Assembly (NCBI GenBank): GCA_009469665.1
Contig: SSTB01000146.1
Coordinates: 1-30,161 of the forward strand
Direction: 5' to 3'
Length of the DNA stretch: 30,161 nt
From: Azonexaceae bacterium
GTDB taxonomy: Bacteria > Pseudomonadota > Gammaproteobacteria > Burkholderiales > Rhodocyclaceae
In this document: positions 17,006 through 30,161 of the stretch, piece by piece
Numbering within the stretch: position 1 is the first letter of the stretch
Layout: every line of letters begins with the position of its first letter
Made by a program: the position numbers and the translations under genes
Notes under the pieces: model-generated
What the model saw: the letters and a program-made list of their open reading frames with translations, nothing else
Database searches by the model: none
Told to the model about the DNA's origin: nothing

Positions 17006-17033
17006 AGATGGGGGCGTCTCCGCCGATTTCAAG
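17006..17033 (-). promoter_or_regulatory. Sigma-32 heat-shock promoter of htpG
   Basis: Read on the minus strand: CTTGAAA (17033-17027), a 13-base spacer, then CCCCATCT (17013-17006). This matches the sigma-32 consensus CTTGAAA-N11-15-CCCCATNT at every defined base. The expected start leaves a leader of about 30 bases before the htpG ATG. Confidence 0.92.
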
Positions 17034-17052
17034 GGCTCCGCCCGGGGCATCC

Positions 17053-17209
17053 GAGCCTGTGAATTTTTCGGGCGCCCGAGCGGCATGCCCAGTTGTGCAC
17101 GATCAAGGCGCAAAGCACGGCCATAGCTCGGGCTATGGCGAGCATTGGCAACGCAGAGCGGGCGCAACTGGGCACGACGAGCGGGGGTAACTGAAATTTT
17201 TCCAGGCTC
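17053..17209 (-). repeat. 157-bp dispersed fold-back repeat with terminal inverted repeats, copy 1
   Basis: The ends GAGCCTGTGAATTTTTC (17053-17069) and GAAATTTTTCCAGGCTC (17193-17209) are imperfect inverted repeats. Inside, GCCCAGTTGTGC pairs with GCGCAACTGGGC, and the centre is a perfect CCATAGC-TCGG-GCTATGG hairpin, so the whole unit folds back on itself. A second copy lies at 30025-30161. In the greB reading direction the element begins on the base after the greB stop codon and ends upstream of the htpG heat-shock promoter. It has no convincing gene. It looks like a small non-autonomous (MITE/REP-like) element. Confidence 0.8.
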
Positions 17210-17764
17210 TTAGTCCAAAGCCTCGTTGCGCACTTCGACGATGTCGATTTCCTTGACCCCCACCGGACTCTGAAAACGAATCAGGTCGCCTTCCCGGGCC
17301 TTCAGGATCGCCCGCGCCAGAGGCGAAATCCAGCTGATGCGCCCCCGGGAGGCATCGGCCTCGTCGATCCCGACGATGGCGTAGGTGTTCTCTTCCCCCT
17401 CGCCGTCGCACAGGGTCACCGTGGCACCGAAGAAAACCTGGTCCGTGGCGCTACGCGCCAAAGGATCGACCACTTCCGCGACTTCGAGCCGCTTGGTCAG
17501 AAAGCGGATGCGGCGGTCGATTTCCCGCAGGCGCCGCTTGCCGTAGATGTAGTCGCCGTTTTCCGAGCGGTCACCGTTGGACGCCGCCCAGGCCACCACT
17601 TCGACCACATGGGGTCGCTCACGCTTGACCAGGTGTTCCAGTTCGGTCTTCAGACGGGCATGGCCGGCCGGCGTGATGTAGTTGCGGGTACCGGCCGGAA
17701 GCGGCGGCAGTTGGGGTGCTTCGTCGTCCCCGTCGGTGTCCTCGCGGACGAAAGCCTTGTTCAA
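17210..17764 (-). CDS. greB: Transcription elongation factor GreB
   Basis: The 184-aa factor rescues backtracked RNA polymerase by stimulating transcript cleavage. The coiled-coil N-domain has YITPAGHARLKTELEHL and the acidic tip region SNGDRSENGDYIYGKRRLREIDRRIRFLTKRLE. The C-domain carries VFFGATVTL and a typical SPLARAILKAREGD end. I chose the TTG at 17764 because GreB proteins normally begin MNKAF and this start gives MNKAFVRED, four bases after the upstream gene's stop. An ATG at 17794 would add ten residues but overlap that gene. The stop codon touches the end of the fold-back repeat. Confidence 0.93.
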   Translation of the reverse strand: MNKAFVREDTDGDDEAPQLPPLPAGTRNYITPAGHARLKTELEHLVKRERPHVVEVVAWAASNGDRSENGDYIYGKRRLREIDRRIRFLTKRLEVAEVVDPLARSATDQVFFGATVTLCDGEGEENTYAIVGIDEADASRGRISWISPLARAILKAREGDLIRFQSPVGVKEIDIVEVRNEALD

Positions 17765-17768
17765 GAAT

Positions 17769-18089
17769 TCAGTATCCGATGGTATAGGCCGCAACGTCGA
17801 CGCGGATCAACTCTCGCCCCAGAACCAGCGCCACCTGGCGAGCGAACTGCCCGGCCCAGGCGCCGTCTTCGTGGAAGCGCTCCGCGCCGGAATAGCGGGC
17901 AATGCTGAGAATTCGGTCGATCACGAGCACCTTGCCGGTCGGCGTAGTCACCTCGCATTCGAGCGCCGCGAACTCCCGATCCAGCCACTTGCGCGCCTCC
18001 TCGGCGCTGCGGCCAGCCAGTTCCTGACGGCCGATGCGGTAGTCGAACTCGACGCCCTTGCCAAAATTGACGATGACCTGGGTCTGCAT
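17769..18089 (-). CDS. Conserved-looking hypothetical protein upstream of greB
   Basis: The 106-aa soluble protein begins MQTQVIVNFGKGVEFDYRIG. A strong AGGAGGGG ribosome site lies just before the ATG, and a TAGAAT -10-like box lies about 30 bases upstream. I recognise no family. It is predicted to be mixed alpha/beta with no cysteine cluster or membrane segment. It is followed after four bases by the greB TTG start, so the two genes probably share a transcript. Confidence 0.7.
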   Translation of the reverse strand: MQTQVIVNFGKGVEFDYRIGRQELAGRSAEEARKWLDREFAALECEVTTPTGKVLVIDRILSIARYSGAERFHEDGAWAGQFARQVALVLGRELIRVDVAAYTIGY

Positions 18090-28900: not shown

Positions 28901-29316
28901 CCGACGCCCTGCTGGAGCGCCTGGTCGCCCTCAATGCCGAGCGCGCCGCCGAAGAAGCCACCGGCCACATCCGCTGGCTCCGCCCCGACTTCCAGAACCC
29001 GAAGGCAAGCCATCCCGCTCCCACCCTCCCCCTTGAAGGGGGAGGCGTATCTCCCCCTCCCCTTCAAGGGGAGGGCCGGGGTGGGGATGGGTCACTCCCC
29101 CCCGCCGCCAAAGCCGAAAAACGCCCCTGGCCCCCCACCTTGCCGGAACAAGTCCGCGCCGTGGCCGACGCCCTCACGCCCACCCCGCAAGACGAACCCA
29201 CCCTCGCCGCCCGCTTCACCGGCAAGGGCCCGTGGAAAAAACGCCTCCCCGAAATCCTCGCCATGCTCGCCGCCCTCGGCCGCGCCAAGGAGACCGAGGG
29301 CGGCTGGCTGGGTTGA
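25918..29316 (+). CDS. MmeI-like type IIL restriction-modification protein (nuclease and adenine methyltransferase in one chain)
   Basis: The 1132-aa protein carries a PD-(D/E)xK nuclease motif near its start, Asp70-x9-Glu80-Ala-Lys82 (RIDCYRRSAFVLEAKK), the spacing and position reported for MmeI. A helical linker follows, then an N6-adenine methyltransferase with SAM motif DPACGSGNF (from Asp396) and catalytic NPPF (Asn560-Phe563). Target-recognition and C-terminal regions run to about residue 1028, including TGSTLEDRPTYVKTTCFEKFPFP and HIRWLRPDFQNP. MmeI is about 920 aa; the extra tail holds palindrome-encoded low complexity (about 1036-1053) and an end segment RLPEILAMLAALGR. Such enzymes methylate one strand and cut about 20 bases away. 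DISARM or BREX partners are absent. Confidence 0.88.
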   Translation: MTPADFIAHWHRADGSELANYQLFVVDLCALLGVEAPQPAREDTRDNAYVFERRVTFRHGDGSASAGRIDCYRRSAFVLEAKKLRADAASKGFDDALLRARGQAESYARALPAEEGRPPFLLVVDIPRVIELYAEFTCTGGSYTPFPDPRSHRIRLDDLARPEIRARLQAVWQDPHSLDPARRTARATREIAVRLARVAQSLEGKYAPERVAAFLSRCLFSMFAEDVGLLPKVDNEGAFTGLLKTLHSAPQQFVPLVAELWKAMDEGQFSVAIRAQLPRFNGKLFKQPEVLPLDRDQIDLLLEAAKADWAEVEPAIFGTLLESALNPLERHDLGAHYTPRAYVDRLVLPTVIEPLRANWHDTQAAALLLANEGKLKDAADLVRAWHHKLCTTRVLDPACGSGNFLYVTLEHMKRLEGEVLDTLAQLGDTQQRLEVEGLTVDPHQFLGLEINPRAAAIAEMVLWIGYLQWHFRTQGSGLPPSPILRDFKNIECRDAVLSADAIAFVTDEAGKPLTRWDGRTTKPHPVTGELVPDEAAQIPLERYTNPRPATWPQADYIVGNPPFIGAAAMRQALGDGYTEALRAAWPAVPDSADFVMFWWHHAADLTRRGQVQRFGFITTNSLKQTFNRRVLEHHLNAQPPLALAWAIPDHPWVDAASGAAVRIAMTVGQPGDAPGTLQTVVGEGGAEADAVHIELTEKTGRIHADLSIGADVVGAKALQANEMLSYPGIEPHGAGFVVTPNEVERLQPCDRIRPYRNGRDLTDKPRGVSVIDLYGLSADEVRSCYPAAYQWLLERVKPERDHNPRESRRKNWWIFGEPCSKFRNALPPLSRYIATVKTAKHLTFQFLDASILPDSKLIAITHDHPYVLGVLSSKIHNIWSLATGSTLEDRPTYVKTTCFEKFPFPAASPEQQARIAALAEQLDTHRKRQQAAHPDLTLTGMYNVLAKLRIGETLTAKDKTIHEQGLVAVLRQLHDELDTAVLEAYGWQDLAPTATDALLERLVALNAERAAEEATGHIRWLRPDFQNPKASHPAPTLPLEGGGVSPPPLQGEGRGGDGSLPPAAKAEKRPWPPTLPEQVRAVADALTPTPQDEPTLAARFTGKGPWKKRLPEILAMLAALGRAKETEGGWLG
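29025..29075. repeat. Two tandem 21-base palindromes inside the restriction gene
   Basis: CCTCCCCCTT-G-AAGGGGGAGG (29025-29045) and CCCTCCCCTT-C-AAGGGGAGGG (29055-29075) are each 10+1+10 perfect inverted repeats, nine bases apart. They resemble intergenic REP/BIME-type palindromes of proteobacteria. Here they lie in frame within the C-terminal linker of the MmeI-like gene and encode a Pro/Gly-rich stretch without breaking it. Confidence 0.85.
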
Positions 29317-29368: not shown

Positions 29369-29593
29369 ATGAATACGCTCGATCTGATCCGCGAAGTTGC
29401 TTCCTTGCCGCTGGAGGAGCGTGCCCGCATTGCCGACGCCGTGTTGCAGACCCTCAACCCGGTCGATGAGACCCATGCCTTGGCCTGGCTGGCGACGGCC
29501 CGGCGGCGGTTGGACGAAGTGGAGTCCGGCGCGGTGCAAGGCGTTCCCGGCGAGGCGGTTTTCGAACGGATACGCCAACGCCACGCCCGATGA
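29369..29593 (+). CDS. Addiction-module antitoxin (PF09720-type)
   Basis: The 74-aa protein MNTLDLIREVASLPLEERAR... has the LPLEERARIADAVLQTLNP signature of the small unstable antitoxins paired with ParE/RelE toxins. It would bind and neutralise the toxin and probably repress its own promoter. Its TGA overlaps the toxin ATG (ATGA), the usual order and coupling. With the toxin broken, the antitoxin may now be free of its partner. Confidence 0.88.
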   Translation: MNTLDLIREVASLPLEERARIADAVLQTLNPVDETHALAWLATARRRLDEVESGAVQGVPGEAVFERIRQRHAR

Positions 29594-29880
29594 GTTTTGT
29601 TTTTCACCCCGAAGCCGAGGCGGAATTCGAGGCCGCGGTCACTTGATATGAAGAACGCTCGCCAGGCCTGGGCCTCGATTTCGCGAGCGAAGTGCTGGAA
29701 GCCATTTGCCGCGCCGAGGCCCTGCCCTTGGCGTGGGCGCTCCTGGATGAACGCATCCGGCGGGTCCTGATCAACCGCTTTCCCTATGGCGTGCTCTACG
29801 TTCCGCAGGAATCCGGGATTCTGATCGTTGCCGTCATGCATCTGTCGCGCGAACCGGATTACTGGCGTTCGCGCACTTGA
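29590..29880 (+). pseudogene. ParE/RelE-type toxin with in-frame stop at codon 19
   Basis: Read from the ATG overlapping the antitoxin stop, the frame gives MSFVFHPEAEAEFEAAVT, then TGA (29644-29646), then YEERSPGLGLDF...AICRAEALPLAWALLDERIRRVLINRFPYGVLYV...VMHLSREPDYWRSRT and a second TGA. The family normally has Trp-Tyr-Glu-Glu-Arg at the break, so one TGG to TGA change explains it. All later conserved parts (RRVLINRFPYGVLY, HLSREPDYW) are intact, which points to a recent mutation or a sequencing error. A GTG at 29692 could start only a 62-aa C-terminal piece lacking the N-terminal strand and helix. Confidence 0.85.
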
Positions 29881-29920: not shown

Positions 29921-30024
29921 TGCGACAAAGGAGACTGGGAAAAAACCTCCCTGACATCCTCGCCATGCTCGCCACCCTCGACGCAAACGATGAATTGATC
30001 GAAATCCTGTCGTTGGAAGCCTGA
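29921..30024 (+). pseudogene. Decayed duplicate of the 3' end of the MmeI-like gene
   Basis: Bases from about 29924 repeat those at about 29220-29279 with substitutions and small indels. In one frame they read GKNLPDILAMLATLDANDELIEILSLEA and stop at 30022-30024, against KKRLPEILAMLAALGR in the intact gene. The run shared by both copies, ATCCTCGCCATGCTCGCC, leaves little doubt about common origin. The frame is broken upstream and no proper start exists, so this is a remnant of a second copy or a related restriction gene. It is followed directly by the fold-back repeat. Confidence 0.7.
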
Positions 30025-30161
30025 GAGCCTGTGAAAATTTCATTCGCCCCCGCTCGTCACGCCCAGCCGCGCCCGCTCGGCGTTGCCAATGCTCGCCATA
30101 GCCCGAGCTATGGCTGTGCTTGGCGCCTTGATCGTGCACACCTGGGCACGCCGCTCGGGCG
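30025..30161 (+). repeat. Dispersed fold-back repeat, copy 2, truncated by the window end
   Basis: Starting GAGCCTGTGAAAATTTCA on the base after a TGA, this copy aligns without gaps to the reverse complement of 17053-17209 over 137 bases, with 14 differences by hand count. The central hairpin CCATAGC-CCGA-GCTATGG is fully conserved. About 20 bases with the far terminal repeat should lie beyond the window. Confidence 0.85.

Follow-up and report, generated by a model that had tools for sequence, protein, structure and literature searches.

Two copies of a short fold-back element raise the question of why a non-coding repeat begins on the very base that follows a stop codon, in the sense of the gene that ends there. 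The window is the whole stretch of DNA that was analysed, 30,161 nucleotides from a contig of an Azonexaceae bacterium (SSTB01000146.1). A sequence-only reading of this DNA has offered two answers, a target-selective small mobile element or a conserved RNA module at the 3' ends of genes, such as a terminator or an mRNA stabiliser. The analysis described here favours the former: the element is probably a non-autonomous, MITE-like element in the style of IS5/IS1031, with target-selective, directional insertion and a strand-specific folded form.

The two copies in the window

The two copies (Table 1) form an inverted pair of 141 nt that is 89% complementary, the CTRA preceding the element included, in agreement with the identity of about 90 percent that had been read from the letters. 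Each copy has the sense of the frame that precedes it and begins directly past a stop, which is the TAA of greB for copy 1 and a TGA for copy 2, as the sequence-only reading had it. The hairpin tip GCCATAGCNCGNGCTATGGC, which it had called invariant, has two occurrences in the window when up to three mismatches are tolerated, compared with 0.03 expected in shuffled sequences. Copy 1 folds with a predicted energy of -72.3 kcal/mol (z -5.8), and copy 2, cut by the window end, with a z of -2.4.

The restriction remnant named before copy 2 is indeed a C-terminal remnant, but its open stretch is only 47 codons long. A 41-bp repeat (29238-29278 and 29940-29980) marks the restriction-modification gene remnants, near a ParE/RelE-like frame that was recognised by eye at 29592-29880 and is broken by an in-frame stop.

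Rfam gives no match in the window at the gathering score, and only weak matches far under the cut-off to copy 1 and one distant copy. Neither a sigma-70-like promoter nor a terminator-like site was found in a search of copy 1. The promoter motif of htpG was called by what we take to be the heat-shock-type consensus.

Table 1 Positions of the two copies and of neighbouring features in the window
Feature	Position	Strand	Remarks
Copy 1 of the element	17053..17209	-	complete copy of 157 nt, same sense as greB
Left terminal inverted repeat of copy 1	17193..17209	-	GAGCCTGGAAAAATTTC, compared with other copies
Right terminal inverted repeat of copy 1	17053..17069	-	GAAAAATTCACAGGCTC
Hairpin tip of copy 1	17120..17139	-	GCCATAGC-CCGA-GCTATGGC, within the conserved asymmetric core
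TAA stop of greB	17210..17212	-	left triplet of the 3-bp direct repeat; most copies have TGA here
GGA to the right of copy 1	17050..17052	-	taken to be the right triplet of the direct repeat, decayed
greB	17210..17794	-	C-terminus matches the closest relatives, all without the element
Heat-shock-type promoter motif of htpG	17006..17033	-	CTTGAAA-N13-CCCCATCT, 19 bases past copy 1
Copy 2 of the element	30025..30161	+	incomplete, the window ends inside it
TGA before copy 2	30022..30024	+	in frame with the 47-codon C-terminal remnant of a restriction-modification gene
Hairpin tip of copy 2	30095..30114	+	

Size and host range of the family

A pattern scan of genome contigs with the tip and part of the right flank has found at least 120 stretches. 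The matches named to genus come nearly all from beta-proteobacteria (Acidovorax, Variovorax, Xenophilus, Massilia, Rhizobacter, Polaromonas, Thiomonas, Dechloromonas and others), and the remaining ones belong to broadly named metagenome genomes. Some genomes carry dozens of copies; these copy numbers are those of relatives, not of the genome to which the window belongs. A covariance model of the element matched ten of ten genomes, all picked for holding such loci, and 13 of 143 genomes sampled from the GTDB class of the Xenophilus genome G004, G004 included. Because the element is a near-palindrome, the model match counts cover both strands, and the 54 matches in G004 amount to 29 places by hand count. 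The phage and E. coli collections that were searched contain no match, and the plasmid collection contains one in two records. A single IMG/VR contig carries the tip, the element itself being absent.

The length of 157 nt given by the sequence-only reading holds for copy 1 but not as the family length, which is exactly 159 nt in 86 of the 107 full copies. Forty-four diverse copies, copy 1 among them, give a nearly gap-free alignment of 159 columns in which many core positions are invariant and bulges in the core are conserved. The outermost pairs of the terminal inverted repeats are kept in all 44, the ends of the alignment reading GANNNTG...CANNNTC; copies begin GAACCTGTGAAC or GAGCCTGTGAAA. 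No coding capacity is seen. Near-identical copies in relatives suggest, at the level of sequence, that the element has moved recently. In the Massilia genome G002, tandem copies have a TGA as their sole separator.

Several derivatives accompany the whole copies. In the Rhizobacter MAG G001 and in L098, arrays of the 8-mer TGAGAGGC, about six units at most, lie at or beside left element ends (in G001, for example, at C134:10694-10762, C141:13190-13250 and C103:2790-2850), together with many solitary TGAGAGGCTGAGAG ends from which the rest of the element is missing. Such arrays and solitary ends are slippage products, deletion remnants or excision footprints. A 21-bp palindrome with one central base at L426:2136-2156 consists of both ends alone with a TGA on each side, and is a minimal deletion derivative of the element. 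Element copies of a Rhizobacter MAG are interrupted at L398:1206-1535 and L425:702-939 by a different small repeat, whose ends resemble GGGTGCGATTCAAACTGATG and which contains CCCTTCGATACCTCAGGGCG.

Target sequence and direct repeat

The flanks were compared in a non-random set of 146 distinct full copies, each with sequence on both sides. The set was drawn from the exact-tip scan (the at least 120 stretches), chosen high-copy genomes and score-chosen regions, and leaves out copies that had lost their ends, scored below 100 or lacked a flank. On the left, the flanking triplet is TGA in 125 copies, TAA in 11, TCA in 3 and another triplet in 7; on the right, it is TGA in 133. The two triplets are equal in 121 copies (TGA 118, TCA 2, TAA 1). 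A C precedes the repeat in 136 of the 146 copies and a G follows it in 97. TGA stops of ORFs of at least 200 aa in the first loci served as controls; among these, a C precedes the TGA in 341 of 917 and a G follows CTGA in 112 of 341, giving Fisher p values of 2e-40 for the C and 1e-11 for the G. The excess of C and G on the two sides of the TGA therefore defines the target as C-TGA-G with a 3-bp repeat. These counts show that the element inserts at C-TGA-G and ends up between two TGA copies, both of which are presumably derived from the target by duplication.

Insertion into native stop codons

The greB–htpG site was compared with 30 greB loci from the family of G006, out of 121 genomes with a match. 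The element profile finds no copy in these loci, its single weak match having an E of 0.16. GreB of close relatives, for example L304, L305 and L307, has the same last residue as that of the window, and in others the end differs by a few residues; therefore, with a C-terminus as in element-free relatives, the greB stop of the window is native. In five of the 30 loci, a CTTGAA...CCCCA motif lies at most 15 bases past greB, ahead of htpG, and the greB–htpG order of the window becomes that of the relatives once the 157-base element and the decayed GGA are removed.

The joined flanks of four copies (A to D) in a 16-kb stretch of G004 were aligned to congeners; the alignments are gapped, mostly at about 70-80% identity, and were counted by hand. 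For copy A, two of five congeners have a stop at the junction, L371 cleanly so; the counts are 10 of 12 for copy B and eight of about 11 for copy C, and no congener alignment spans the junction of copy D. At greB and at the Xenophilus sites, these alignments show element-free relatives holding a stop at what aligns as the same place. Since the stop is present in relatives without the element, the element enters native stops and the gene stays whole. The proposal of a target-selective small mobile element is thereby borne out by the many copies, the TGA repeat, the C-TGA-G target and the stops of element-free relatives.

Stop codons and fixed orientation

The sequence-only reading would have fallen with copies scattered without relation to stops or with a lack of further copies, and neither is seen. 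In the flank set, in which ORF stops were used in place of annotated gene stops, 101 of the 146 copies have as their left triplet the in-frame sense stop of an ORF of at least 100 aa and 16 that of an ORF of 30-99 aa, leaving 29 with none. A single copy of the 146 adjoins the antisense stop of an ORF of at least 100 aa. In G004, an exact sense stop (ORF of at least 80 aa) is found at 21 of the 26 copies examined, 24 of which have intact ends; three further weak places, by hand count, stand outside it. The left triplet of 20 examined copies in Massilia G002 is TGA in 19 and TAA in one, and 10 of the 20 lie at the stop of an ORF of at least 60 aa, two of these being short ORFs in the tandem array. 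On plasmid NZ_LR594692.1, which is independently annotated, a CDS ends at 65029 and the element match starts at 65030.

The orientation of the element relative to its TGA is fixed. Copies at which no ORF of at least 30 aa ends still show 19 TGA versus 3 TCA in the left triplet, and selection for a function at gene 3' ends as the cause of the orientation is weakened because these copies are also oriented, although some of them may adjoin decayed or short genes. The orientation bias and the antisense-stop count both rest on the sense of the TGA and are not independent of each other.

How far the target alone accounts for the stops was estimated from 395 kb of G004, in which the 406 CTGAG sites split into 74 sense stops, 104 other non-coding sites and 228 sites in genes. 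Sense stops thus make up 42% of the CTGAG sites outside genes, an expectation that is probably low because the gene caller used for the split is simple (coding fraction 0.77). With 21 of the 24 intact G004 copies at stops, p is 4e-6 against the expectation of 42% and 0.004 against one of 60%. The CTGAG target together with loss of insertions inside genes can explain much of the coincidence with stop codons, not clearly all of it. The fixed orientation is not a consequence of the target sequence.

Three IS5-type elements of G004 with TNA repeats served as a control (16 readable copies, 11 without readable ends being dropped). Read along the transposase gene, their repeats are TGA or TAA in nine copies and TCA or TTA in seven, and the 16 copies adjoin three sense and four antisense stops. 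Because the control elements lie at stops both ways, landing on a stop is natural for elements with a TNA target, and what sets the small element apart is its one-way orientation.

Strand-specific hairpin

The arms of the hairpin are mismatched in a strongly asymmetric manner. Over pairs 1-54 of the sense strand in 104 distinct 159-nt copies, A-C pairs outnumber G-T pairs by 583 to 35, and pyrimidine-pyrimidine mismatches outnumber purine-purine mismatches by 714 to 39. Of the 47 informative pair positions, 38 have more A-C than G-T (p 2e-5). The base composition (C 35, G 27, T 21 and A 17 percent) was considered as the sole cause and rejected in view of these counts. Sense-strand A-C pairs and pyrimidine mismatches correspond to G-U wobbles and purine mismatches on the antisense strand, which therefore folds better. 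A covariation kept at the DNA level only, as few G-U cells on the sense strand might suggest, was rejected because a sense A-C is a G-U wobble of the other strand.

The antisense strand is predicted to be the more stable one in all 104 copies, with means of -105.5 versus -81.6 kcal/mol by RNA parameters, and DNA parameters again favour it in all 104; the copies are related and are not independent trials. The same advantage holds for all 20 groups defined by the starting 7-mer, for the two window copies and for all 14 copies of a distant version of the element that were folded. RNAalifold on the 44 aligned copies predicts 61 pairs at -106.7 kcal/mol for the antisense strand and 46 pairs at -50.0 kcal/mol for the sense strand. 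The 61 antisense pairs contain 243 G-U versus 16 A-C cells, counts that lean towards the predicted structure since the same rows were used for the prediction. By these folding models, a one-strand structure is preserved across lineages with differing ends and targets. The modelled antisense structure agrees with an RNA or with a life cycle that includes a folded single strand, and does not agree with a sense-strand terminator.

The distant version and other related repeats

Several genomes of the class sample carry the distant version, which is 156-160 nt long, has the same core and ends in GGAACCTCTGAT...ATCAGAGGTTCC. Twenty loci were fetched, of which 14 were folded and 19 tested for flanking repeats. 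Exact 4-bp repeats (TTAA, CTAA, CTAG, CAAG) flank nine of the 19. Repeats that are variable and yet matched point to staggered cutting of both strands, as is the case in the IS5 family, and the 4-bp YTAR-like repeats and GGAACC ends fit the IS5 subgroup. The stop of an ORF of at least 80 aa adjoins five of the 20 loci, with the outer end G counted in; these stops are sense in four cases (L155, L157, L158 and L161) and antisense in two (L149 and L161). Stops can thus be landing sites for the distant version too, and these few cases show no fixed direction.

Other repeats share parts of this design. A further relative at L168:1429-1578, with ends ATGACTCGGAAATATC, has the TAG stops of ORFs of 130 and 463 codons on its two sides, four bases outside the element. 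Genome G067 contains elements of about 262 bp and about 210 bp with the GGAACCTCTGAT ends of the 157-bp distant version (for example, C18:24142-24403 and C7:34516-34777). Hairpins at L014:2879-2938, L090:5397-5456 and L113:550-612 share the core CGTTGCAAAT...GGTTTGCGCCT and have the tip GCGATAC..GTATCGC instead, in different surroundings; the one in L090 sits within an element copy. The core may be a module common to several families of small elements.

Search for an autonomous partner

The sequence-only reading had suggested a search for an autonomous transposase or a RAYT sharing the ends of the element. No such autonomous transposase was found in the genomes searched, among the matches listed. 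The end-pattern search of G004, G006 and G007 gave pairs at the spacing of the element only, and no autonomous element. In G001, G002, G003, G005 and G010, the end pattern without ordinary copies has at least 153 matches; 50 loci from this search hold three inverted pairs at 300-3000 bp, none of which is IS-like in content on inspection. The ends were also catalogued in G067, G141 and four relatives; the 20 regions of G067 and G141 that were examined contain three such pairs, two of them made up of neighbouring whole copies or ends and one enclosing a host gene.

Four candidate transposons were rejected. The 740 bp of L425 196-935 consist of a solitary left end and a decayed, interrupted copy past a small host gene, and the inverted pair of L398 is the element interrupted by another small repeat. 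The inverted end pair of L384 does not have the appearance of bearing a transposase, and L296 5882-7090 has differing flanks and a host gene inside.

Genes of the DDE_Tnp_1 type are present in six of the seven genomes searched, and the IS5-type elements (PF01609) of G004 have ends starting with GA and TNA repeats. The DDE_Tnp_1 loci with readable ends have ends unlike those of the element. Xenophilus G004 has undergone a strong expansion of transposases, with 96 DDE_Tnp_1 matches. Y1 transposase genes occur in nine of ten genomes. However, a link to RAYT is not upheld by the 15 Y1 loci, which contain no element copy within about 1.5 kb on each side, and G007 has element copies and no Y1 match. 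An autonomous partner may have been lost or may reside in other genomes.

Comparison with known systems

The closest likeness is to the IS1031 subgroup of the IS5 family and its MITEs. A published IS of that subgroup has the end GAACCTGTCTAGTATCT, the target TNA and the repeat TGA (PMC12016507). The ends of the element resemble this end over the first eight or so bases only. The element shares with the subgroup and its MITEs ends that begin GA(G/A)..(C/G)TG and a 3-bp TNA repeat (TGA), and no coding capacity is seen in it. It differs in that its target is nearly always C-TGA-G, its orientation is single, its one-strand hairpin is conserved over the full length and no partner was found. It is called MITE-like and of the IS5/IS1031 style, rather than a proven member, because no partner with shared ends was found.

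Like the IS200/IS605 elements, the element inserts in one orientation 3' of a short target. However, these elements transpose without target duplication, and matched 4-mers flank 9 of 19 distant copies, TCA/TCA two copies of the element and TAA/TAA one. Integron attC sites, which recombine through a folded bottom strand, also adjoin stop codons and carry the end boxes RYYYAAC/GTTRRRY. The element likewise follows stop codons and has one folded strand; unlike attC sites, it lacks these boxes, has TGA repeats and is dispersed rather than arranged in cassette arrays. With Correia/NEMIS and ERIC/RU, the element shares small size, lack of coding, a palindromic structure and mobility, but the ends and targets of these and similar MITEs differ from those of the element. 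To our knowledge, none of them has an exact, oriented placement at stop codons. An intrinsic terminator differs from copy 1, which has no site with a hairpin and a U-tract and whose sense strand folds more weakly.

REPs are described as sequences of 20-40 bp with a GTAG or CGTC tag (PMC3733652). The element resembles the REP/RAYT system as an imperfect, bulged palindrome dispersed outside genes, and is unlike it in its 159 bp, its ends GAG...CTC, its flanking repeats and the absence of a linked Y1 gene among the loci searched. Word and sequence searches of the open-access literature gave no description of the element, the nearest being BRE, a beta-proteobacterial repeat of Bordetella, Polaromonas and Delftia that measures 75-91 bp in Bordetella, is sometimes tandem, shows signs of mobility and, in the portion of the report available, has no stated tie to stop codons (PMC3110155). 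The element is likewise a small dispersed beta-proteobacterial repeat with signs of mobility and an overlapping host range; unlike BRE as described there, it is 159 nt long and tied to stops. The comparison is by description only, and the core may be identical to BRE or overlap with it.

Proposed mechanism and alternatives

The element inserts into C-TGA-G in a fixed orientation and has a TGA on both sides. With such a target and repeat, a gene ending in CTGA keeps its own stop, which the element follows immediately. Cutting and joining would be the work of a transposase supplied in trans, probably an enzyme of the DDE type that makes 3-bp TNA repeats and, in the distant relatives, presumably 4-bp YTAR-like ones; the enzyme is inferred only, since no autonomous partner was found. 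Stops would dominate because CTGAG, though a rare pentamer, is common at the stops of G+C-rich genomes, and because insertions into genes would be lost. A folded single strand, ssDNA or RNA, may take part in propagation or in the choice of orientation.

Fixed orientation and folding of one strand are unexpected for a double-strand DDE element with symmetric ends. A tentative and rather doubtful proposal is that the element spreads through a folded antisense ssDNA or RNA, with directional integration at CTGAG by a route other than that of a double-strand MITE and with an enzyme that is only postulated. If true, stop codons would be the natural, harmless landing sites of a stop-codon-seeking element.

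Movement as a folded single strand, an ssDNA hairpin as in IS200/IS605, REP/RAYT or attC, would account for the one-strand structure and for the fixed orientation beside a short target. The greater antisense stability in every copy folded, distant ones included, the conserved core bulges, the oriented CTGA target and the wide occurrence of Y1 genes agree with such movement, which is nevertheless unlikely: the matched variable repeats of the distant copies and the rare TAA/TAA and TCA/TCA pairs (3 of 146) point to staggered double-strand cuts, and the Y1 loci without a copy and G007 without a Y1 match also count against it.

Less likely again is an RNA that folds and acts from the antisense strand, either as a retro-type intermediate copied into CTGAG or as an RNA hairpin with a role at the 3' ends of genes, such as a block to antisense read-through. 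The predicted pairing has RNA-like substitutions, with G-U far above A-C cells over the 61 modelled pairs. However, copy 1 has no promoter-like or terminator-like site of the kinds sought, no Rfam family matches at the gathering score, and the distant version has the same strand bias and yet takes either orientation in its few stop-adjacent cases.

A sense-strand module at gene 3' ends, a terminator or mRNA stabiliser selected at each gene and the second answer of the sequence-only reading, would explain a start on the base after the stop and in gene sense in 101 of 146 copies, but is highly improbable given orthologous sites of relatives that lack the element, the lack of a terminator-like site in copy 1, and a conserved pairing that is weaker on the sense strand than on the antisense strand in all 104 copies.

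Implications

If the MITE-like reading is right, a mobile element has reached dozens of sites per genome with genes left unbroken, as its target overlaps the stop and its repeat restores the stop. A hairpin of about 60 pairs then stands on the first base past many beta-proteobacterial stop codons, where it may affect termination, mRNA ends and downstream promoters. The combination of a one-strand structure and a fixed orientation would make the element a testable case of a small transposon that needs a folded single strand.
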